A stretch of DNA of 64,000 bases from Sandaracinaceae bacterium (GTDB lineage Bacteria > Myxococcota_A > Polyangia > Polyangiales > Sandaracinaceae). The DNA lies in contig JAHBWG010000048.1 of assembly GCA_019637095.1 (NCBI GenBank), positions 1-64,000 on the forward strand, read 5' to 3'. Under the pieces are notes generated by a model. It was not told where the DNA came from. It made no database searches and saw only the letters and a list, made by a program, of their open reading frames with translations. The position numbers and the translations under genes were made by a program. Positions 9,598 through 18,842 of this stretch are shown one piece after another; position 1 is the first letter of the stretch, and every line of letters begins with the position of its first letter.

Positions 9598-10683
9598 TCA
9601 ATAGAGGAAGGGGATCATCCGGAAGCGCGCGCGCTGGCAGTAGCGCTCCCACAGCTCTCCGTACTTCGCGCGGCACTTCTTGTCGTCGCGCCACGCGCGG
9701 TGGACCAAGAGGGCGATGAGCCAGGTCGGGAGCAGGTACGGGACGAAGGACGCGTCGCCCGCGAGCAGGGTGAACGACCAATAGAGCATGATCTCACCCG
9801 TGTAGTTGAGCTTGCGCCCGATGCCCCAGAACCCGCTGACGAGGATCTTTCCGTCGAGCGTCTCGGCCGGCTTGCCCCAGATCCGCGCGTTGCGGTCGCG
9901 CTTGAACTCGTGCTTCTGCTGGTTCGACCCCCGAAAAATCCAGAGCCCGGTGAGGAACATCAGCGTGAGCCCGGCCGCCATCCAGATCGGGAGCGGCGCG
10001 GTGTGGTCGACGAGATACCAGCCGACGATGGAGTACGCGAACGGGACGAAGGCGTAGTCACCCCACACGAGCATGAAGCCGAACTTCTCCGCCACGATGT
10101 CCCACGTGTGGAGCATCCCGTACTCGAACTGGAAGTAGTTGAAGACGTAGACGAAGGTGAACGCCTGATAGAGCATCATCTGCGTCGTGAGCTCGCCGCG
10201 CTCCTGCCATTGAACGACCGCGAACGACGCGTTGAGGATCGCGAGGCCGATGAGCGACGGCCGGTACGCGAACATCTTGATGTCGACCCCGAGCCAACGC
10301 GGGTTGAGCTCCACGCCGTACCAGAGGTCCGAGACGAGCCCGCGCAGCCCGCGCGAGCGCTCCGCCTTCGGCGAGAGGTAGAGCGCCACGGTGTGCGCGA
10401 CGCTGAAGAGGTTGGCCGCGACGAAGAGCCCCCAGAAGTGCTCGTGCACGAACGCGAGATCGACGAGGCCGAGCCACGTCCCGCCGCCGAGCAGCGCCGC
10501 GGTGAGGAGGAAGAGCGCGAGGCCGTTGAGGCGGTAGGGGAGCCGCGTTCCGTCGGCGAGCTTCGCGCCCTTCTCCTCCTTGCCGGGGACGAGCAGGGAG
10601 CCGACGAACAGGTACGCGACGAAGCCGAGCGCGAGCGCGAGGCCGTAGGCGAGGGTGACCGGATCGGTGACGGGGCGAGGCAT
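9598..10683 (-). CDS. Sterol C14 reductase (ERG24/DHCR family)
   Basis: This 361-residue multi-pass membrane protein of the ERG4/ERG24/DHCR7 family shows YGVELNPR (122-129), RGSNQQKHEFKRD (251-263), the signature ILVSGFWGIGRKLNYTGE (280-297) and the C-terminal KYGELWERYCQRARFRMIPF (340-359). Members use NADPH to reduce sterol double bonds. C14 reduction fits best because the gene sits with CYP51, whose product carries the Delta14 bond. Delta7 (DHCR7) or C24(28) reduction cannot be excluded by motif alone. It lies 14 nt before the epoxidase/squalene synthase fusion and 8 nt after the cyclase fusion, so it belongs to the same transcript. Confidence 0.92.
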   Translation of the reverse strand: MPRPVTDPVTLAYGLALALGFVAYLFVGSLLVPGKEEKGAKLADGTRLPYRLNGLALFLLTAALLGGGTWLGLVDLAFVHEHFWGLFVAANLFSVAHTVALYLSPKAERSRGLRGLVSDLWYGVELNPRWLGVDIKMFAYRPSLIGLAILNASFAVVQWQERGELTTQMMLYQAFTFVYVFNYFQFEYGMLHTWDIVAEKFGFMLVWGDYAFVPFAYSIVGWYLVDHTAPLPIWMAAGLTLMFLTGLWIFRGSNQQKHEFKRDRNARIWGKPAETLDGKILVSGFWGIGRKLNYTGEIMLYWSFTLLAGDASFVPYLLPTWLIALLVHRAWRDDKKCRAKYGELWERYCQRARFRMIPFLY

Positions 10684-10691
10684 GGTGCGTG

Positions 10692-13600
10692 TCAGCCCGC
10701 GAGCGGGCGCTGCTCCCTCGAGCGTTCGTGCCAGGCGCCGCGCTCGGCGGCGCGGCGCGCGTAGAGCCCGAGCGCCCACGGCGGGAAGTAGGCGCGATAG
10801 AGGCGGTACTCGAGCAGGGCGGTGTGGAAGAAGATCCCCTCCGGGTCCTGCTTGGGCCAGGTGCCGTCGGGGCGCTGCGCGCGCGCGAGGAAGCGCGCCG
10901 CGCGCTCGAGCGCGTCGAAGTCCGGCTCGCGCGCCTCGCACAGCGCGGTGAGCGCCCACGCGGTCTGCACGACCTGGCCCTCCGGGTGCTCGACGTAGCG
11001 GCCCTCGAGGACCGAGTCCGCGTGCTCGCCCCAGCCGCCGTCGGGGCGCTGGCGCTCGAGCAGCCACTGCCGCGCGCGGCGGATCCGGGGGTCGGTGACC
11101 GGCACGCCGGCGGCGAGCAGGCCGCGGATGCCGAACATCGTGCCGTACACGAAGTGCACGCCCCACATGCCCTCGAACGATCCGTCGGGCCGCTGCAGCG
11201 CCGAGAGCCGCGCCCGCGCGCGCTCGATCGCCGCGTCGAGCGCGGGGCGCAGCCGGTCCGGGTGGTGGTGCCGGAACGCGGCGAGCGCGGTGGTGCAAGA
11301 CGCCGTGCACTCGACATACGAGCGCTCCGTCATGCACGCGCCGAACATCTCCGACGGGTTGAGCCAGTCGATGCCCTCCGCGCGCCGCGCCTCGTAGGAG
11401 CCGAAGCCGCCGTCGGGGTTCTGGCACGAGAGCACGAAGCGCGCGGCCGCCTCCATCGCCTCCGCGCTCGGCTGCGCGACCGGCGACTCGAGCCGCGCGA
11501 GCATCGCCTCGGCGGTGCAGTCGCTCACCGGCCAGCCGTGCCACACCCCGGCGAAGCAGTAGCCGCCGGTCGGGTCGAGCCGATCGTGCCGCGCCTCCTC
11601 GCCGGTGCCTCGCTGGATCTGCTGCGTCACGAGGAACGCGTCGGCGCGCCGGAGCGCGTCGCTCACGTCGGTGAACGGCGCGAGCGCGCTCAGCGCCTGC
11701 GCCGCGAACGCGGTGTCCCACGTCGCGCTGCGCGCGCCAGAGACGCGCGCGCCCTCCGCCTCGTCCTCCCAGATCCAGCCCTCGAACCCCTCGAGGCCCT
11801 TGGCGAGGTCCGGGTCGTCCGGGTCGTGCGCGTAGAGCGCGATCATCCCGAGCAGGCCGCTGACCGGCGAGATGCAGGTGTACGAGGTCGAGCGCAGCTC
11901 GTAGCGGATCGCCTCGCGCAGGCGCGCGAGGAGCGGCTCGCGCGCCTCGGGCGAGCGCAGCCGATCGAAGCGGACGAGCGCGCGGTACCCGGCGCGCAAC
12001 AGCGCCCCCGGCGCCTCGTGCACGTCGCCCGGGTCGAGCGCCTCGCGGGCCGCCGCCCAGTCGATCGTGTCGTAGGGCGTGACGAACAGCTCGTCGCGCA
12101 GGCAGCGGATCGTCGCGTCCGGCGGCGGCGTCGGGCGCGCGCCGTAGACGGCCGCCATCCCCATGTAGATCAGGCGCGTGTGGCAGTAGTAGCGGGACGG
12201 ATGGAGCGGCAGCCAGCGCGGGGCGGCCCAGAGCTCGGGGACGACCGGGTTGACGCCCTCCCACGCGTACAGCCCGGCGAGCGCGAGCCAGAGCTTGCCC
12301 CAGCTCGGGATCGCGACCGCGCCGCCGCGGGCGCGCAGGAACGCGCGCGCGCCGGTGAGGAGCGGATCGCTCGCCGCGACGCCGAGCAGGCGCGCCGCGA
12401 CGTACACCAGCGTCGTCACGTAGAGGTAGGGCTCGCTCTTGGGCGAGAGCCCCCAGGTCCCGTCGGCGAGCCGCGTCGTCTCGAAGTGACGCAAGATCCC
12501 TTGCGATCGCGCGGCGGTGATCGGGCGGCCCATCACGTGGCTCGCGATCACGTACTGCGCGGCGAGCATCGGGCACCACACCACCTCGCCCTCGAACGAG
12601 CCGTCCTCGGCCTGCTCGCGCGCGAGGGCCGCCGCGCCGCGCGCGAGGGCGTCGGTGATCGACGGGCCGGCGACGCGCCGCGTGGGCAGCCCGACCACCT
12701 CGGCCTCCTCGCCGCTGCGCAGCGCCGCGCCGAAGCGCGTCGCGCCGCGCGCCTCGAGGCGCTCGGCGAGCCGCGACGGCAGGAGCGCCGTCCAGCCGAG
12801 GCTCCCGCCGACCATCCACCCGATGCGCGTCAGCATCGCGGTGCCGGTGCGGTGCGCGTCGGCCGCGTCGACGGGCGCGCGCCGCGCGACCGCGGCGGCG
12901 CCGGAGATCGCGACGCGCAGGCAGGAGCCGGCGAGGTGCGCGACGCCGCCGTCCTCGCCCGCGAGGTAGCCCATGCTGCGCAGGCGCTCGCTCGCGTCCT
13001 CGCGCCAGGTGCGGTAGGTCGCCTGGCGCAGCGCGATCGACTCGGGCGCGTCGTCGGCGAACAGCTCGGCGAGCCCGATCGCGACCGCCTCGGGCACGCG
13101 CGCGCGGCGGCGGCACGCGCGCCGGTAGGCGCCGAGCCCGCGGCCGGCGCCGAGGTGCGTCTCGGCGAACGCGAGCGCGTCGCCGACCGCGAACGTCGGC
13201 CCCGCCTCGGTCAGCGGGTGCAGGTCGCCGACCGCGTCGCCCGCGCGCGCGAGCCCGCCCTCGGCCGCGTCGCCGCGCGGCGTGACGCGGCCCCCGCTCC
13301 ACACCGGCGCGCCGCGCCGCAGCGCGTCCGCGAACGCGCCGGCCAGGCTCGGGGGCAGCGCCGGCGCGTACGCTTCGAAGAGCGCGAGCCCGCCCTCGCG
13401 GGGCATCCGCGCGCCGAGCGGCACGTCGAGGGTCAGCCGGATCACCGACGGCCCGATCCGATACGCTATCGCCGGCCCGGGCCCGCCCGCGAAGAGGTGG
13501 CGGAAGCCTTCGAACGGCAGCTCGGCGCCGACCAGCTCGAGGCTCGCGAGGCGGTAGGTCGGCTGGCGGTGCACGGCGCCGAAGCTCCACGAGCCCTCGC

Positions 13601-14093
13601 CGCGCGCCGCGGCGTGCGTCGGCGCGCCGGCCGCGAGCAGGATCCGCTCCGCGCTCGCGCAACGCGCCTTGCCCGCTTGCTCCCACGCGAGGGTCCCCGC
13701 GCTCGCGCGCGTCGCGCGCGCGGGCATCACGAGGTCGACGCCGTCCTGCGCCGCGCAGTGCGCGCGCAGCGTCTCGACGAGCAGGCCGCGCGGGAGCGCG
13801 AGGCCGAAGCGCTCCGCGCGGTACGGCAGCGCGATCGGCGTCGAGCCGTCCTCCGGGAAGAGCACGAAGCCTCGCCCCGTCGGGTAGCCGACCGGCGGGA
13901 CGAGGTCGACGCCGAGCGCCTCGAGCGCGTCGACCGCCGGCGGGTGCAGCCACTCGCCGACCGCCTCGGCCGCCGCGGCGTGCGGGTCGGCCTCGAGCAA
14001 CAGCACGCGCGCGCCGCGCGCATGGCAGGCCAGCGCGGCGGTGCAGCCGGCGATCGAGGCGCCGACGACGGCGACGTCGTAGCGACAGGTCAC
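10692..14093 (-). CDS. osc: Epoxidase-like FAD domain fused to oxidosqualene cyclase
   Basis: This is a 1133-residue protein. Residues 480 to about 1115 are an oxidosqualene cyclase: HPSRYYCHTRLIYMGMAAVY (631-650), ELFVTPYDTIDWAAAR (668-683) and the catalytic WPVSDCTAEA (854-863; Asp858), the DCTAE form rather than the DxDD of squalene-hopene cyclases. Several QW motifs follow (QNPDGGFGSY; QRPDGSFEGMWG; QRPDGGWGEH). Positions matching plant cycloartenol synthase 477 and 481 are His852 and Val856, so lanosterol, parkeol or a mixture is possible. Residues 1 to about 450 resemble the epoxidase of the neighbouring fusion but look worn: GASIAG for GAGPAG, no DGRxS motif, EAGPT for MGMT. Start is GTG in a GTGA overlap with the upstream stop. 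Confidence 0.95.
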   Translation of the reverse strand: MTCRYDVAVVGASIAGCTAALACHARGARVLLLEADPHAAAAEAVGEWLHPPAVDALEALGVDLVPPVGYPTGRGFVLFPEDGSTPIALPYRAERFGLALPRGLLVETLRAHCAAQDGVDLVMPARATRASAGTLAWEQAGKARCASAERILLAAGAPTHAAARGEGSWSFGAVHRQPTYRLASLELVGAELPFEGFRHLFAGGPGPAIAYRIGPSVIRLTLDVPLGARMPREGGLALFEAYAPALPPSLAGAFADALRRGAPVWSGGRVTPRGDAAEGGLARAGDAVGDLHPLTEAGPTFAVGDALAFAETHLGAGRGLGAYRRACRRRARVPEAVAIGLAELFADDAPESIALRQATYRTWREDASERLRSMGYLAGEDGGVAHLAGSCLRVAISGAAAVARRAPVDAADAHRTGTAMLTRIGWMVGGSLGWTALLPSRLAERLEARGATRFGAALRSGEEAEVVGLPTRRVAGPSITDALARGAAALAREQAEDGSFEGEVVWCPMLAAQYVIASHVMGRPITAARSQGILRHFETTRLADGTWGLSPKSEPYLYVTTLVYVAARLLGVAASDPLLTGARAFLRARGGAVAIPSWGKLWLALAGLYAWEGVNPVVPELWAAPRWLPLHPSRYYCHTRLIYMGMAAVYGARPTPPPDATIRCLRDELFVTPYDTIDWAAAREALDPGDVHEAPGALLRAGYRALVRFDRLRSPEAREPLLARLREAIRYELRSTSYTCISPVSGLLGMIALYAHDPDDPDLAKGLEGFEGWIWEDEAEGARVSGARSATWDTAFAAQALSALAPFTDVSDALRRADAFLVTQQIQRGTGEEARHDRLDPTGGYCFAGVWHGWPVSDCTAEAMLARLESPVAQPSAEAMEAAARFVLSCQNPDGGFGSYEARRAEGIDWLNPSEMFGACMTERSYVECTASCTTALAAFRHHHPDRLRPALDAAIERARARLSALQRPDGSFEGMWGVHFVYGTMFGIRGLLAAGVPVTDPRIRRARQWLLERQRPDGGWGEHADSVLEGRYVEHPEGQVVQTAWALTALCEAREPDFDALERAARFLARAQRPDGTWPKQDPEGIFFHTALLEYRLYRAYFPPWALGLYARRAAERGAWHERSREQRPLAG

Positions 14094-15208
14094 ATCGACG
14101 CCATCAGCCGCGCGGTGATCGTGCGGACCGCGGGCTGCTGCGAGAGGCCGACGACGAAGTCGAGGCCGCCGTTGCGCACGAGCCCGCGGAACACGCCGCC
14201 GCCCCAGAAGGAGAGCTGGAACGCGCGCTTGCACTCGCGCTCGTAGCGGGCGAGCGCGGCCGCCTCGTCGGCGCGACCCGAGAGGATCGACGCGACCGCC
14301 TCGGCGCCGAGCATCCCGGAGCGCATGCCCTGGTAGATGCCCTCGGCCGTCGCGGGGTGGGTCATCAGGCCCGACTCGCCGATCGCGATGCGCCCCGGCG
14401 CGGTGAGCTGCTCGATCGCGTAGCTCCACACGATCGGGTGGCCGCGCCAGCCGCCGACCTGCGTCGCGTTCGCGAGCGCGCCCGCGTAGTGCTTGTCGAG
14501 GAACGCGCGGAAGAGCTCGCGCGCGTTCTTCTTCCCGTCGGGCGGGTCCTCGTAGGTGATGCCGATGTTGACGCGCGTCTCGGTCTCCGGGAACAGCCAC
14601 CCGTAGTAGGGGTCGAGCATCCGATCGAAGATCATCTCGACGTGGTGCGGGCGGAACTCTGCGTGATCCCACCACCCCATGATCGCCTGGATCACGCGGC
14701 GCGGGCGCAGCGCGGGCAAGCCCACGCGGCAGTGGCTGCCGCCCGCGACGAGCGTGTGGCGGGCGCGCACCTCGTCGCCCGCGCGGCTCTTGAAGCCGAC
14801 CATGCGGCCGCCCTCCTCGATCGCCTCGGCCGCGTCGAAGTCGGCGACGAAGCGCGTGCCCGAGGCGAGCGCCTTCTTCAGGAGCACGTGGTCGAGGATG
14901 CGGCGGTAGCAGACGACCGCCTCGGCGGCCTCGCCGCCCGACTGCCAGCTCTCGAGCCCGCCCGGCGTCACGAGCCGCAGGCCGCGGATCGGGTACGCGT
15001 GCGGCGCGACCTCGTCCCACACGCCGAGCTTCTGGAGCGTCTTGATCCCCTTGGGCGAGATGCCGCTGCCGCAGGTCTTGTCGCGCGGGAAGTCGTGGCG
15101 GTCGACGAGCACCACCCGCTCCACGCCGAGCGCTCCGAGGTGCGCCGCCGCCGCGGTGCCCGCGGGGCCGGCGCCGATGATCGCGACGTCTGCTTCGTAT
15201 CGTTCCAT
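14090..15208 (-). CDS. Geranylgeranyl reductase-family FAD oxidoreductase
   Basis: This 372-residue flavoprotein has GAGPAG (12-17), the family signature PRDKTCGSGISPKG (about 41-54) and a second FAD motif IAIGESGLMTHPATAEGI. Geranylgeranyl reductases of this type saturate isoprenoid double bonds in chlorophyll side chains, archaeal lipids and quinones. Placement between the SDR and the cyclase fusion points to an isoprenoid or sterol substrate. A Delta24 side-chain reductase is an attractive inference, since no DHCR24-like gene is visible here, but a polyprenyl chain reductase is equally compatible. ATG has GAGAAG as ribosome site. The stop overlaps the GTG of the cyclase fusion by 4 nt, so the two are translationally coupled. 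Confidence 0.88.
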   Translation of the reverse strand: MERYEADVAIIGAGPAGTAAAAHLGALGVERVVLVDRHDFPRDKTCGSGISPKGIKTLQKLGVWDEVAPHAYPIRGLRLVTPGGLESWQSGGEAAEAVVCYRRILDHVLLKKALASGTRFVADFDAAEAIEEGGRMVGFKSRAGDEVRARHTLVAGGSHCRVGLPALRPRRVIQAIMGWWDHAEFRPHHVEMIFDRMLDPYYGWLFPETETRVNIGITYEDPPDGKKNARELFRAFLDKHYAGALANATQVGGWRGHPIVWSYAIEQLTAPGRIAIGESGLMTHPATAEGIYQGMRSGMLGAEAVASILSGRADEAAALARYERECKRAFQLSFWGGGVFRGLVRNGGLDFVVGLSQQPAVRTITARLMASM

Positions 15209-15220
15209 GGCGCTTCTCTA

Positions 15221-16045
15221 TCAGGTGCCGGTCGCGGCGTGGGGCGCCGCGCTCGGGCGCCGCTCGACGAGCGGCGGCTCGGTCGTCCCCGCGCGCGCCG
15301 GCACCCGGCGGCGCCGCGCGAGGTCGGCGTAGGCTTCGTGGATCGCGCGGCGCACGTCGGCGGGCGCGTGCCCGAGCGAGGCGCCGCGCGGCGCGTCGAG
15401 CGGGAGCGGCCTCGAGAGCAGCCCCCCGAGGACCGCGCGGAGCGGGCGGCGCGGGCGCGGGCGGCCGGTCACCTCTTCGAACAGGTCGAGCAGCGCGCTC
15501 GCGTCGAGCACGGCGCGCGGCGCCGCGTAGACCTCGCCCGCGCGGCCGCGGGTGAGCGCGAGGGCGATCGCGTCGGCCACCTCGCTCGCGCCGGCGAGCG
15601 CGACGCGCTCGAACGGCAGCGCGCGGAGCCGGCCGTGCGCGTGCTCGACGAGCGCGCGCGCGAGCGGCGCCTCGTCGTCGCGGGGCCCGACGATCGCCGG
15701 CACGCGGACCAGGACGACCTCGGGCGCGCGCGTGTCGCGCGCCCACTCGTCGAGGGCGGGCGGCGCGTCCTCGCCGACGACGAGCACCACGCGACCGACG
15801 CCAGCGTCCGCCGCCGCGGCGAGGGCGCGGCGCGCGCCCGCCGGATCGGCCGCCTCCACGATCGCGGCGCGGCAGCCGGCGAGGCGTCCGTCGAGCTCGA
15901 TCGCGTGGCCCGCCGCGTCGAGCCGCTCCGCCGCGCGCACGATCACGCCGGGCGTCGCGCAGAGCCGCTGCGCGAGGTGCGCGCCGAGGGCGCCCCTCAC
16001 GCCCACGAACACGCGCCCCGGCCGCGCCTCGGGCGCGGCGCTCAC
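15221..16045 (-). CDS. Degenerate NAD(P)-binding SDR / epimerase-like protein
   Basis: This 274-residue protein starts with a short leader, then a Rossmann-like RVFVGVRGALGAHLAQRL (about 11-28). Later segments (GVGRVVLVVG; VVLVRVPAIVGPRDDE) match the strands of extended SDRs such as 3-beta-hydroxysteroid dehydrogenase/C4-decarboxylases. The catalytic Tyr-x3-Lys is missing: the expected place reads EWARDTR. It may be a non-catalytic or atypical SDR. In a sterol operon the tempting role is sterol C3/C4 processing, but the missing residues argue against ordinary dehydrogenation. GTG start, 84 nt after the HMG-CoA reductase stop in repeat-rich DNA, and 12 nt before the reductase downstream. The exact start is uncertain. 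Confidence 0.7.
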   Translation of the reverse strand: MSAAPEARPGRVFVGVRGALGAHLAQRLCATPGVIVRAAERLDAAGHAIELDGRLAGCRAAIVEAADPAGARRALAAAADAGVGRVVLVVGEDAPPALDEWARDTRAPEVVLVRVPAIVGPRDDEAPLARALVEHAHGRLRALPFERVALAGASEVADAIALALTRGRAGEVYAAPRAVLDASALLDLFEEVTGRPRPRRPLRAVLGGLLSRPLPLDAPRGASLGHAPADVRRAIHEAYADLARRRRVPARAGTTEPPLVERRPSAAPHAATGT

Positions 16046-16084
16046 CTCGTCGAGGCGCTCGAGCCGCCGCGGCTTCCTGGCGGC

Positions 16085-16294
16085 GTGCTCGGGCGCCGCG
16101 CGCTCGGCGCGCTCGCGACGCTGGCGCGCTCACGCGACGCCCGGCGTGCTCGCGACGCTCGGCGTGCCCGCGACGCCCGGTGCGCTCGCGACGCTCGGTG
16201 CGCTCGCGACGCTCGGTGCGCCCGCGACGCTCGGTGCGCTCGCGACGCTCGGTGCGCTCGCGACGCTCGGTGCGCTCGCGACGCTCGGCGCCCC
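16085..16294 (-). repeat. 18-bp minisatellite crossing the HMG-CoA reductase stop codon
   Basis: About nine imperfect copies of an 18-bp unit (minus-strand sense GTCGCGAGCGCACCGAGC) encode the Ala-Pro-Ser-Val-Ala-Ser tail of the HMG-CoA reductase. Related sequence continues past the stop (16130-16132) toward the SDR start. The unit is a multiple of three, so copy changes would keep frame. Confidence 0.85.
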
Positions 16295-17644
16295 CTCCGG
16301 CGCCGGGCTCGCGTCGCCACGCGCCGCCTCGGGCGACGGCGCGCTCGCCCGGGCGCGCAGCTCGCGGATCACCTCCGCGGCGGCCCGCGCGTTGACCTCG
16401 CCCGCGTCGGCGATCCGGCGCGCGACCTCGAGCACCTCGTGCTCGGCGGCGCCCGCCTCGACCGCGACGTTGCGCGCGTGCAGGCGCATGTGGCCCTTCT
16501 GGATGCCCTCCGCCGCGAGCGCGCGCAGGGCGCCGAGGTTCTGCGCGAGCCCGACCGCCGCGCAGAGCCGCGCCACGTCGTCGGCGTGCTCGACGCGCGC
16601 GATGCGGCACGCCACCTCGACGACCGGGTGCGAGCGCACCACGCCGCCGACGACGCCGACCGCGAGCGGGATCGTCATGCGGCCCACGAGGTGCCCGTCC
16701 TCGACGCGCCAGCGCGCCATCGCGGTGTAGCGGCCGCCGCGGGCCGCGTGCGCGTGCGCGCCCGCCTCGACCGCGCGCCAGTCCTGGCCGAGCGCGATCA
16801 GCGCGGCGTCGACGCCGTTCATGATCCCCTTGTTGTGCGTCGCGGCGCGGTAGGGATCGCGCTCGGCGAACACGCTTGCCTCCTCGATGCGCCGCGCGAG
16901 CTCCTCGCCGCTGCCCGCGCCCTTGCCCTCGAGCTCCGCGAACGGCACGCGGCCCACGACGGTCACCGTGCGCTCGTCGGTGAGGTTCGAGAGGATCCGC
17001 AGCGCCACGCGGCCGCCCGTCAGCTCGCCGACGTGGGGCGCGAGTCGCTCGCACATCGAGTTGACGGCGTTCGCGCCCATCGCGTCGCGCACGTCGACCG
17101 CGAGGTGCACGACGAGCATGTCGCCGCAGGGATCGTCGGGCTCGAGCCGCGGCAGGCGCCGCACGCGGATCGAGCGCGCGCCGCCGCCCGCCTCGACGAG
17201 GCGCGGGTGCCCCGCGCTCGCGATCGCGAGCAGCTCCGGCTCCGCCGCGAGGAGCGCGCGCTCCGCCGCGTCCGGGTCGGGCACCTCGAGCACCTGGATC
17301 TGCCCGATCACGATCGGCGCGCTGCACGTCGCCTCGACGCCGCCGCCGCCGCGCAGGAGCTTGGCCGCGAAGCTGCACGCCGCGATCACGCTCGGCTCCT
17401 CGACGACCATCGGCGCGAGCACGTCGGCGCCGTTGATGCGGAGGTTCATGCAGAGCCCGAACGGCAGCCCGAACACCCCGAGGGCGTTCTCGACCATCCG
17501 CTCGGCGTGGTGCTCCTCGAGCCCGGCCGCCGGCACGAGCCGCGCGAGCTCGTCGTCGGCGAGGCCGCACACCTCCCCCACGCGAGCGCGCCGTTCGGGC
17601 ATGCTCAGCCGGTAGAAGCGGGAGATGCAGCTACAGCTCGTCAA
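16130..17644 (-). CDS. mvaA: Class II HMG-CoA reductase with a hexapeptide-repeat tail
   Basis: This 504-residue protein carries the reductase core in residues 1 to about 430. Visible catalytic features are Glu83 in VVEEPSVIAAC, Lys272 in THNKGIMNG, Asp288 in ALGQDWRAVEAGAH and His385 in IQKGHMRLHARN, with DAMGANAVNSMCE as substrate loop. This is the class II (MvaA) type. It converts HMG-CoA to mevalonate or the reverse; beside a polyprenyl synthase and squalene synthase the biosynthetic direction is likely. The TTG start is supported by GGAGG 7 nt upstream and by the N-terminal SRFYRLS, which matches the family start. Residues 451-504 are nine near-copies of SAPSVA, an unusual low-complexity tail. 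It heads the sterol operon. Confidence 0.93.
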   Translation of the reverse strand: MTSCSCISRFYRLSMPERRARVGEVCGLADDELARLVPAAGLEEHHAERMVENALGVFGLPFGLCMNLRINGADVLAPMVVEEPSVIAACSFAAKLLRGGGGVEATCSAPIVIGQIQVLEVPDPDAAERALLAAEPELLAIASAGHPRLVEAGGGARSIRVRRLPRLEPDDPCGDMLVVHLAVDVRDAMGANAVNSMCERLAPHVGELTGGRVALRILSNLTDERTVTVVGRVPFAELEGKGAGSGEELARRIEEASVFAERDPYRAATHNKGIMNGVDAALIALGQDWRAVEAGAHAHAARGGRYTAMARWRVEDGHLVGRMTIPLAVGVVGGVVRSHPVVEVACRIARVEHADDVARLCAAVGLAQNLGALRALAAEGIQKGHMRLHARNVAVEAGAAEHEVLEVARRIADAGEVNARAAAEVIRELRARASAPSPEAARGDASPAPEGAPSVASAPSVASAPSVASAPSVAGAPSVASAPSVASAPGVAGTPSVASTPGVA

Positions 17645-17704
17645 GGTCCGGCCTCCGGTCGGCGCGTCGAGGGCGCACTCGTGCCCACCGCTCGCGCGGC
17701 GGCG

Positions 17705-17733
17705 ACGCTAGCCCAGGCCCCGGGCGTGGTCCA
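17705..17733 (-). promoter_or_regulatory. Candidate promoter of the sterol operon
   Basis: On the minus strand TGGACC (17728-17733) is followed after 17 bp by TAGCGT (17705-17710). Transcription would start near 17698, giving a leader of about 54 nt that carries GGAGG (17652-17656) 7 nt before the TTG start. The match to the sigma-70 consensus is partial, so this is a prediction. Confidence 0.45.
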
Positions 17734-17749
17734 GACGATTTCCGCTCTG

Positions 17750-17806
17750 TGAACTGGGTTCATGAACCGGGTTCATCCCTGATTCCAAGGGTGAACCGTG
17801 TTTCAC
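17750..17806. promoter_or_regulatory. Three palindromic operator-like sites between divergent isoprenoid genes
   Basis: Two abutting 13-bp palindromes, TGAACTGGGTTCA (17750-17762) and TGAACCGGGTTCA (17763-17775), create a perfect 12-bp palindrome GGTTCATGAACC at their junction. A third, GTGAACCGTGTTTCAC (17791-17806), ends 6 bp before the -35 of the polyprenyl synthase. Tandem TGAAC/GTTCA inverted repeats in a divergent promoter region are typical operators for dimeric repressors such as TetR or MarR types. No regulator gene is adjacent, so the protein is unknown. Confidence 0.65.
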
Positions 17807-17812
17807 GGCGCG

Positions 17813-17841
17813 TTGACTTCGCGCCCGCGGCGCGTCAGCGT
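17813..17841 (+). promoter_or_regulatory. Candidate promoter of the polyprenyl diphosphate synthase
   Basis: TTGACT (17813-17818), a 17-bp spacer and CAGCGT (17836-17841) precede the GTG start by 8 nt, which would give a leaderless or nearly leaderless mRNA. The -10 is weak, but spacing is ideal and the third palindrome lies just upstream. Confidence 0.45.
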
Positions 17842-17849
17842 GCGCGCCC

Positions 17850-18842
17850 GTGGAAGGCTGGACCAGCGAGGTGTCGGCGGGCGTCGAGCGCCGCCTGAGC
17901 GCGTTCTTCGACGAGGAGCGCGCGCGCGTCACGCAGCTCGCGCCACAGGCCGAGGTGCTCCACGGCGCGATCGCGGCGCTGACGATGCGCGGCGGCAAGC
18001 GGCTGCGCCCGGCGGTGCTCTACGCCGCGTACCGCGCGGTGCGGCCGGACGGCGGCTTCGGCGAGGTCGCCGACGCGTGCGCGGGGCTCGAGGTGCTGCA
18101 GACGTACCTCCTCATCCACGACGACTGGATGGACGGCGACGAGACGCGGCGCGGCGGCCCATCCGTGCACGCGGCGCTGCGCGACAGGTTCGATCCCGCG
18201 CTCGCGGATCGGCTCGCCATCCTCGCCGGCAACCTCGCGTGCGCGTGGAGCTGGCGGCTGTTCGGCGCGGGCGAGGCGGTCCGCGACGTGGTGCTGCGCA
18301 TGCACGAGGAGGTCCTCGTCGGCCAGCAGCTCGACCTGATGGCGGTCGAGGACGTCTCGCGCATGCACCGGCTCAAGACGGGCAGCTACACGCTGCGCGG
18401 GCCGATCGCGCTCGGCGCGGTGCTCGGCGGCGCGAGCGCGGCGCAGCGCGAGGCGCTCGACGCGTTCGCCGCGCCGCTCGGCGAGGCGTTCCAGCTCCGC
18501 GACGACCTGCTCGGCACGTTCGGCGACCCGCGCGACACCGGCAAGTCCGCGGGCAACGATCTCTGCGCCGGCAAGCGCACCGCCCTCGTGCTCGCCGCGG
18601 AGCGCTCGGGCGCGGACCTGCGCGAGCTGCGCGCCGTCTTCGGCGTGCTCGACGCGCCCGCGCCCGCGATCGCTGCCGCGCGCGCGCTGCTCGAGCGCTC
18701 GGGCGCGCGGCGCGCGGTCGAGACGCGCCTCGACGCGCTGCTCGCCGAGGCCGACGCCGCGCTCGCGCGCGCGCCGCTCGCCGAGTCGGGCCGCGCGATG
18801 CTCGCCGAGCTCGCCGCCCGCCTCGCCCACCGCGCGCACTGA
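17850..18842 (+). CDS. Polyprenyl diphosphate synthase (FPP/GGPP synthase type)
   Basis: This 330-residue trans-prenyltransferase has GGKRLRP (48-54), the first Asp-rich motif in LIHDDWMDGDETRRGG (DDWMD 91-95) and the second in DDLLGTFGD (218-226). It joins IPP to allylic diphosphates. The residue five before the first motif is Tyr, with no FARM insertion, a pattern seen in archaeal-type GGPP synthases, so chain length is not settled; FPP is expected as the feed for the squalene synthase fusion on the opposite strand. Start GTG follows a plausible promoter by 8 nt with no Shine-Dalgarno. It diverges from HMG-CoA reductase over three shared palindromes, suggesting common control. Its TGA lies within a hairpin repeat element. 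Confidence 0.93.
   Translation: MEGWTSEVSAGVERRLSAFFDEERARVTQLAPQAEVLHGAIAALTMRGGKRLRPAVLYAAYRAVRPDGGFGEVADACAGLEVLQTYLLIHDDWMDGDETRRGGPSVHAALRDRFDPALADRLAILAGNLACAWSWRLFGAGEAVRDVVLRMHEEVLVGQQLDLMAVEDVSRMHRLKTGSYTLRGPIALGAVLGGASAAQREALDAFAAPLGEAFQLRDDLLGTFGDPRDTGKSAGNDLCAGKRTALVLAAERSGADLRELRAVFGVLDAPAPAIAAARALLERSGARRAVETRLDALLAEADAALARAPLAESGRAMLAELAARLAHRAH

Follow-up and report, generated by a model that had tools for sequence, protein, structure and literature searches.

In eukaryotes, HMG-CoA reductase (HMGR) and the sterol genes are under the joint control of SREBP. According to a 2025 study on how Myxococcota make cholesterol, bacterial genomes lack SREBP homologues and little is understood of the proteins by which bacteria regulate sterols (PMC12004948); in the open literature, we found no regulator of bacterial sterol synthesis. 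Among TetR-family proteins, KstR is described as an autorepressing regulator of cholesterol catabolism in Mycobacterium whose AAC..GTT palindrome is found at dispersed lipid genes (PMC1995591). The actinobacterial BioQ boxes are given as TGAAC-N3-GTTCA (PMC3398298), and this was the only paper that we found for the motif string. Here, we describe the latter palindrome in a sterol locus of Myxococcota. From sequence comparisons, we think it quite probable that the palindromes in the window are operators of a TetR protein, TetR1, which would control its own operon and scattered lipid genes including the sterol operon.

The window, which is the whole 64,000-nucleotide stretch analysed, lies on contig C141 of a Sandaracinaceae genome (G000; 9.25 Mb in 197 contigs). 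It carries two divergent arms (Table 1), and a sterol locus of this kind has been described for Sandaracinus amylolyticus (PMC12004948). The Bsr sterol C-24 reductase, for which the left arm holds a candidate, is known from the same study. The palindromes that the initial annotation had placed between the HMGR and polyprenyl-synthase genes are present, as is the 12-bp palindrome at their junction, and sites I and II match TGAAC-N3-GTTCA exactly. The single HMGR-epimerase/3beta-HSD-like frame of genome G002 recurs at the same place in G005 and G008 (838 aa). In the window (15221-16320), the frame is interrupted next to 11.3 copies of an 18-bp tandem repeat (16087-16288), and the break at the linker is possibly a frameshift or an assembly error. 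A second HMGR and a second polyprenyl synthase are encoded in a mevalonate cluster (L092 5898-11087, G000:C176) together with GHMP-kinase-family genes and a diphosphomevalonate decarboxylase gene. No motif site within one mismatch is found in that cluster, so the operator is confined to the pair linked to the sterol genes.

Table 1. Features of the sterol locus and of the region between its two arms (window coordinates; promoter elements are proposed)
Feature	Position	Strand	Evidence or remark
ERG4/ERG24-family sterol reductase	9598..10683	-	PF01222 4e-79
Squalene-epoxidase-like and oxidosqualene-cyclase-like frame	10692..14093	-	PF08491, PF13243, PF13249; TIGR03463 715 bits, below cut-off of 851
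Geranylgeranyl-reductase-family gene, candidate sterol C-24 reductase (Bsr type)	14090..15208	-	TIGR02032 147 bits, slightly below cut-off
Epimerase/3beta-HSD-like fragment	15221..16045	-	In G002, one 857-aa frame fuses HMGR to such a domain
HMG-CoA reductase, first gene of left (sterol) arm	16130..17644	-	PF00368 E=2e-98; TIGR00532 361.8 bits, above cut-off
HMGR promoter, proposed -10, TAGCGT	17705..17710	-	18-bp spacer, conserved in G002; consensus scan negative
HMGR promoter, proposed -35, CTGGAC	17729..17734	-	Block conserved in G002; consensus scan negative
Operator site I, TGAACTGGGTTCA	17750..17762	.	Exact TGAAC-N3-GTTCA; aligns with one-mismatch site in G002
Junction palindrome, GGTTCATGAACC	17757..17768	.	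Perfect, 12/12 positions, 12 bp
Operator site II, TGAACCGGGTTCA	17763..17775	.	Exact TGAAC-N3-GTTCA, abuts site I; missing from G002 alignment
Operator site III, GTGAACCGTGTTTCAC	17791..17806	.	One extra T in right half; 12/16 self-complementary
Polyprenyl-synthase promoter, proposed -35, TTGACT (TTGACA in G002)	17813..17818	+	G002 alignment
Polyprenyl-synthase promoter, proposed -10, CAGCGT	17836..17841	+	17-bp spacer
Polyprenyl diphosphate synthase, right arm	17850..18842	+	PF00348 E=3e-43

Alignment with G002 pairs sites I and III and leaves site II as an insertion; the G002 counterpart of site III is an exact motif. The distance from site I to the HMGR promoter block is 15 bp in the window and 17 bp in G002, and that from site II to site III is 29 bp versus 30 bp, near-equal spacings that are expected of a 13-bp tandem duplication. 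Site II is probably such a duplicate of site I, adding a site for one more dimer. Because sites I and II abut, the junction palindrome arises automatically and needs no further explanation; as a by-product of abutment, it does not support the cooperative binding that the initial annotation had read from it. The bases flanking the exact window sites are G..T and A..T, and the imperfect site III has G on its left and C on its right. A spacing of about 29-30 bp between paired sites is seen repeatedly, at window sites II and III (17763-17806), at HMGR in G002 (L307) and at cholesterol oxidase 2 in G002 (L073), compared with 18-19 bp at tetR promoters.

Scanning the window with up to two mismatches gave 12 matches against 5.25 ± 2.07 in shuffled sequences, with 0 of 100 shuffles reaching 12; the only exact matches are sites I and II. 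Genome-wide, there are 12 exact copies, compared to 0 for a reversed-pattern control and to 0.68 expected in 9.25 Mb under a first-order Markov model of 333 kb of own sequence (Poisson P ~1e-11). Random occurrence across the genome, which the initial annotation had named as the outcome that would speak against an operator, is thus not what the scan returned. One-mismatch matches number 70, against 11 for the control pattern; 50 of the 70 were listed, and 20 regions with such sites, picked by eye, were fetched. With genes called by a simple codon-usage script trained on seven window genes, 10 of the 12 exact copies lie in noncoding DNA ahead of a called start, with centres 9-101 bp from the nearest one, and the other two fall within called genes; only ∼5% of the window is noncoding. 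The flanks are R..Y at the window sites and at the other exact own-genome sites, apart from C..C at one site inside a gene and T..A beside a second TetR gene, TetR2.

The genes that follow these sites include several with a link to sterols or other lipids. Exact sites precede two full-length cholesterol-oxidase homologues (matches to PDB sequences at 3.5e-85 and 2.3e-76), which are the only such homologues in the genome at E<=1e-20; on the NCBIfam cholesterol-oxidase model they reach 81 and 101 bits, a long way short of its cut-off of 850. Another precedes a 3beta-HSD-family gene whose best solved match is a sterol-4-alpha-carboxylate 3-dehydrogenase (1.9e-45) and whose best NCBIfam model is OleD, below the cut-off. 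Further exact sites precede a KAS III gene, an mpaB/rubber-oxygenase-domain gene with a thioesterase gene downstream, a pectinacetylesterase-like gene, a kinase gene, a small-protein gene (L085) and the pair formed by TetR2 and a PF10118 gene. We weighed a link to olefin synthesis from the OleD model and the KAS III target and claim no such pathway. A KAS III paralogue (G000:C167:5767-7860), close to another TetR gene, is without a site near its start. Among the 20 fetched regions, one-mismatch sites precede a FadL/TodX-like gene as well as genes for PAS, rhomboid and HNH proteins, the latter three with no evident lipid link.

The candidate regulator, TetR1, was found among the same 20 regions. 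Its gene (G000:C124:32030-32773, minus strand) has a one-mismatch site, TGAATCACGTTCA, at its own start, so that the operator lies at the regulator's own promoter as in an autoregulated TetR operon. The statement of the initial annotation that no regulator is encoded nearby holds for the surroundings examined, but the candidate sits on another contig. TetR1 has an N-terminal TetR_N helix-turn-helix (PF00440, 9.7e-16) and is predicted to adopt the all-helical TetR fold (AlphaFold2 pLDDT 88.6, pTM 0.82). The best Foldseek matches to the model are generic TetR proteins, with TM scores by query length of ∼0.4-0.6, and this structure comparison pointed to no ligand. In phmmer, the similarity of TetR1 to solved TetR proteins falls mostly within the DNA-binding domain. 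The gene that follows TetR1 encodes a member of the fatty-acid-hydroxylase superfamily (PF04116, 5e-18).

TetR1 or a relative (E<=1e-15) is present in 14 of 38 genomes, and near the start of the relative an exact site is found in 8 of the 14 and a site within one mismatch in 12; the remaining two have two-mismatch sites. A larger set of 80 loci came from named genomes, of which 78 were scanned for sites (L229 and L250 were left out). The neighbour and site statistics cover 58 of the 80, weaker or partial matches being excluded by choice, and 57 for sites since L194 is short of upstream DNA. In these 57, exact sites occur at 12 loci, sites within one mismatch at 28, and sites of a relaxed pattern picked after the sites had been viewed, T[GA]AA[CT]N3[GA]TT[CT]A, at 50. 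Control stretches of the same length 1 kb upstream gave 0/51 in each class, and other half-site permutations at the named loci averaged 0.00 (exact) and 0.22 (one mismatch). The sites at the named loci are flanked by G..C in 54 of 68 cases, and of the 18 pairs of sites at tetR loci, 16 have a spacing of 18 or 19 bp. Symmetric co-variation of the half-sites is seen at one position pair (P=0.004) and not at the other (P=0.60). The proximal autoregulatory sites share one frame with tetR in 52 of 68 cases; the site may overlap the first tetR codons, and coding constraint may contribute to it, but frame differences and stops in some genomes argue against this being the whole reason for the site. 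An operon of tetR and a same-strand, downstream fatty-acid-hydroxylase-superfamily gene, with the conserved operator, is seen at L163 (2149-3474) and at 43 of the 58 named loci, mostly in records of Myxococcota/Deltaproteobacteria; TetR relatives also occur in some records labelled Planctomycetota, Dadabacteria and Gemmatimonadetes.

Conservation of the sites next to HMGR is narrower. Among the family genomes compared, nine encode HMGR of this type: G000 and G002 have intergenic sites within one mismatch beside HMGR, and the other seven (G001, G003-G008) have none within one mismatch there. G005 and G008 encode a TetR1 that is ∼59% identical and has exact autoregulatory sites, yet both lack an HMGR site within one mismatch. 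Outside the family, two one-mismatch sites separated by 17 bp lie upstream of HMGR in G016, which belongs to another family of the same order. Sites of the window type at HMGR and the synthase therefore recur in a second genus (G002) and a second family (G016), and the proposal of an operator for a dimeric regulator between these genes is borne out by a motif that is non-random genome-wide and kept in another genus.

The other targets give a mixed picture. In G002, two one-mismatch sites with a spacing of 30 bp accompany the orthologue of cholesterol oxidase 2 (73% identical), and the KAS III orthologue (58% identical) has an exact site; the orthologue of the first cholesterol oxidase (64% identical) has none. 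In G005 and G008, no site within one mismatch was found at the KAS III orthologue, and the orthologues of the 3beta-HSD-like target in G002 and G005 have no site (for these two targets, 16 of 27 loci were examined). Exact sites in G002 are also found at P450 and aldehyde dehydrogenase genes. By these comparisons, three target groups and the tetR operon are kept between the two genera, and the rest of the regulon turns over.

The initial annotation had spoken of divergent promoters. These promoters were assumed, and a scan of 17600-17900 for the sigma-70 consensus and terminators found no match. The promoter placement in Table 1 consequently rests on hexamer-like blocks shared with G002, CTGGAC-18-TAGCGT for HMGR and TTGAC(A/T)-17-CAG(C/G)GT for the synthase. 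The proposed synthase -10 ends 8 bp ahead of the first possible start codon, GTG 17850 (window 17836-17850), and given this distance the transcript may be leaderless.

At the level of sequence, the data support three points: the palindrome is an operator, it is conserved and it is linked to TetR1. TetR1 would control its own operon with the downstream fatty-acid-hydroxylase-superfamily gene, and its further set would comprise the HMGR-led sterol operon, the divergent polyprenyl synthase, both cholesterol-oxidase homologues and the sterol-4-alpha-carboxylate-dehydrogenase-like gene; control of both arms by the window sites is plausible. Most likely, a TetR1 dimer would occupy each palindrome and hold transcription down, and a lipid ligand, perhaps a sterol or a sterol precursor, would free TetR1 from the operator. 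The sterol or isoprenoid ligand proposed in the initial annotation is favoured by the targets, but TetR1 is also present in G009, where the search at the cut-off used returned no HMGR of this sterol-operon type, so sterol is not necessarily at the core of what TetR1 does. If sterol supply and 3-hydroxysterol oxidation are controlled together, this would point to one modified sterol as the product rather than to breakdown. A more specific and tentative proposal, which we hold to be somewhat less likely than its negation, is that TetR1 is a sterol-homeostasis regulator that senses a sterol or intermediate and couples the mevalonate/FPP supply for the dedicated sterol operon to 3-hydroxysterol oxidation further down, by the two cholesterol-oxidase homologues and the sterol-4-alpha-carboxylate-dehydrogenase homologue, a one-component repressor in the role that SREBP has in animals.

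Repression is the natural reading because the sites lie after a TTGACA box at tetR1 and within 40 bp of the start codon at most other targets. Between HMGR and the synthase, each proposed -35 element has the sites on its upstream side, with centres at ∼-58 (HMGR) and ∼-50 (synthase) from the putative start points, so activation is possible there. TetR1 might then activate, or dually regulate, HMGR and the synthase by recruiting polymerase upstream of -35 while repressing its own gene. We regard this as unlikely, though the strongest of the alternatives, as it leans on proposed promoters in a region where the consensus scan was negative, and as the site centre at most other targets is 9-39 bp from the start codon, which is a repressor position.

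A different occupant of the sites must also be weighed. The genome has 38 TetR_N matches. TetR2 (HTH at G000:C133:11072-11209) shares the 13-bp core operator, and an exact site lies between it and its divergent PF10118 neighbour. Relatives of TetR2 in G003 and G007 (57-59% identical) adjoin the same kind of site, and at all three loci the site reads TTGAACN3GTTCAA; in the own genome, the divergent pair with this site between its genes spans L088 5097-6708 (G000:C133). The T..A flanks are absent from the window, from G002 and from the TetR1 sites, and this difference makes the window sites fit TetR1. Moreover, although TetR2 is present in G003 and G007, neither genome has a site within one mismatch at HMGR, and occupation of the window sites by TetR2 is accordingly improbable. 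Some sites in G003 and G007 had been candidates for further regulon members and were rejected, as they belong to TetR2.

Still less probable is a BioQ-type biotin repressor, even though this too is a TetR-family protein and its consensus in actinobacteria, as given in PMC3398298, is identical: no biotin gene was found among the scanned neighbours of the exact own-genome sites, and TetR1 resembles solved TetR proteins mainly in the DNA-binding domain. Chance, or a role in DNA or RNA structure only, might be argued from the two exact copies in the window and the imperfect third, but the genome-wide excess, the promoter location and the cross-genus conservation had already disfavoured it, and we give it almost no weight.

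With TetR1 as the probable regulator, these findings name a candidate protein, its putative binding site and a set of candidate targets in a genome that bears a sterol locus, which makes bacterial sterol regulation testable. Since the operon of tetR and the fatty-acid-hydroxylase gene is widespread in Myxococcota, the result would extend past this genome. SREBP is a comparison of function only, as it is unrelated to TetR1. Mce3R of M. tuberculosis is a cholesterol-linked TetR repressor with similarity to TetR1 in the DNA-binding domain, but it is described as a double-TetR protein with a non-palindromic site, whereas TetR1 is single. KstR is also among the solved proteins that match TetR1 in this domain; its reported motif, TnnAACnnGTTnnA, is related but has a 2-base centre rather than the 3-base centre seen here, its regulon is described as catabolic, and TetR1 scores 39.5 bits on the KstR equivalog model against a cut-off of 280. 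BioQ shares with our system the operator consensus and the TetR family, and differs in that it is described for a biotin regulon in actinobacteria, while here the targets are lipid and sterol genes in Myxococcota, with G..C flanks and autoregulatory pairs 18-19 bp apart.
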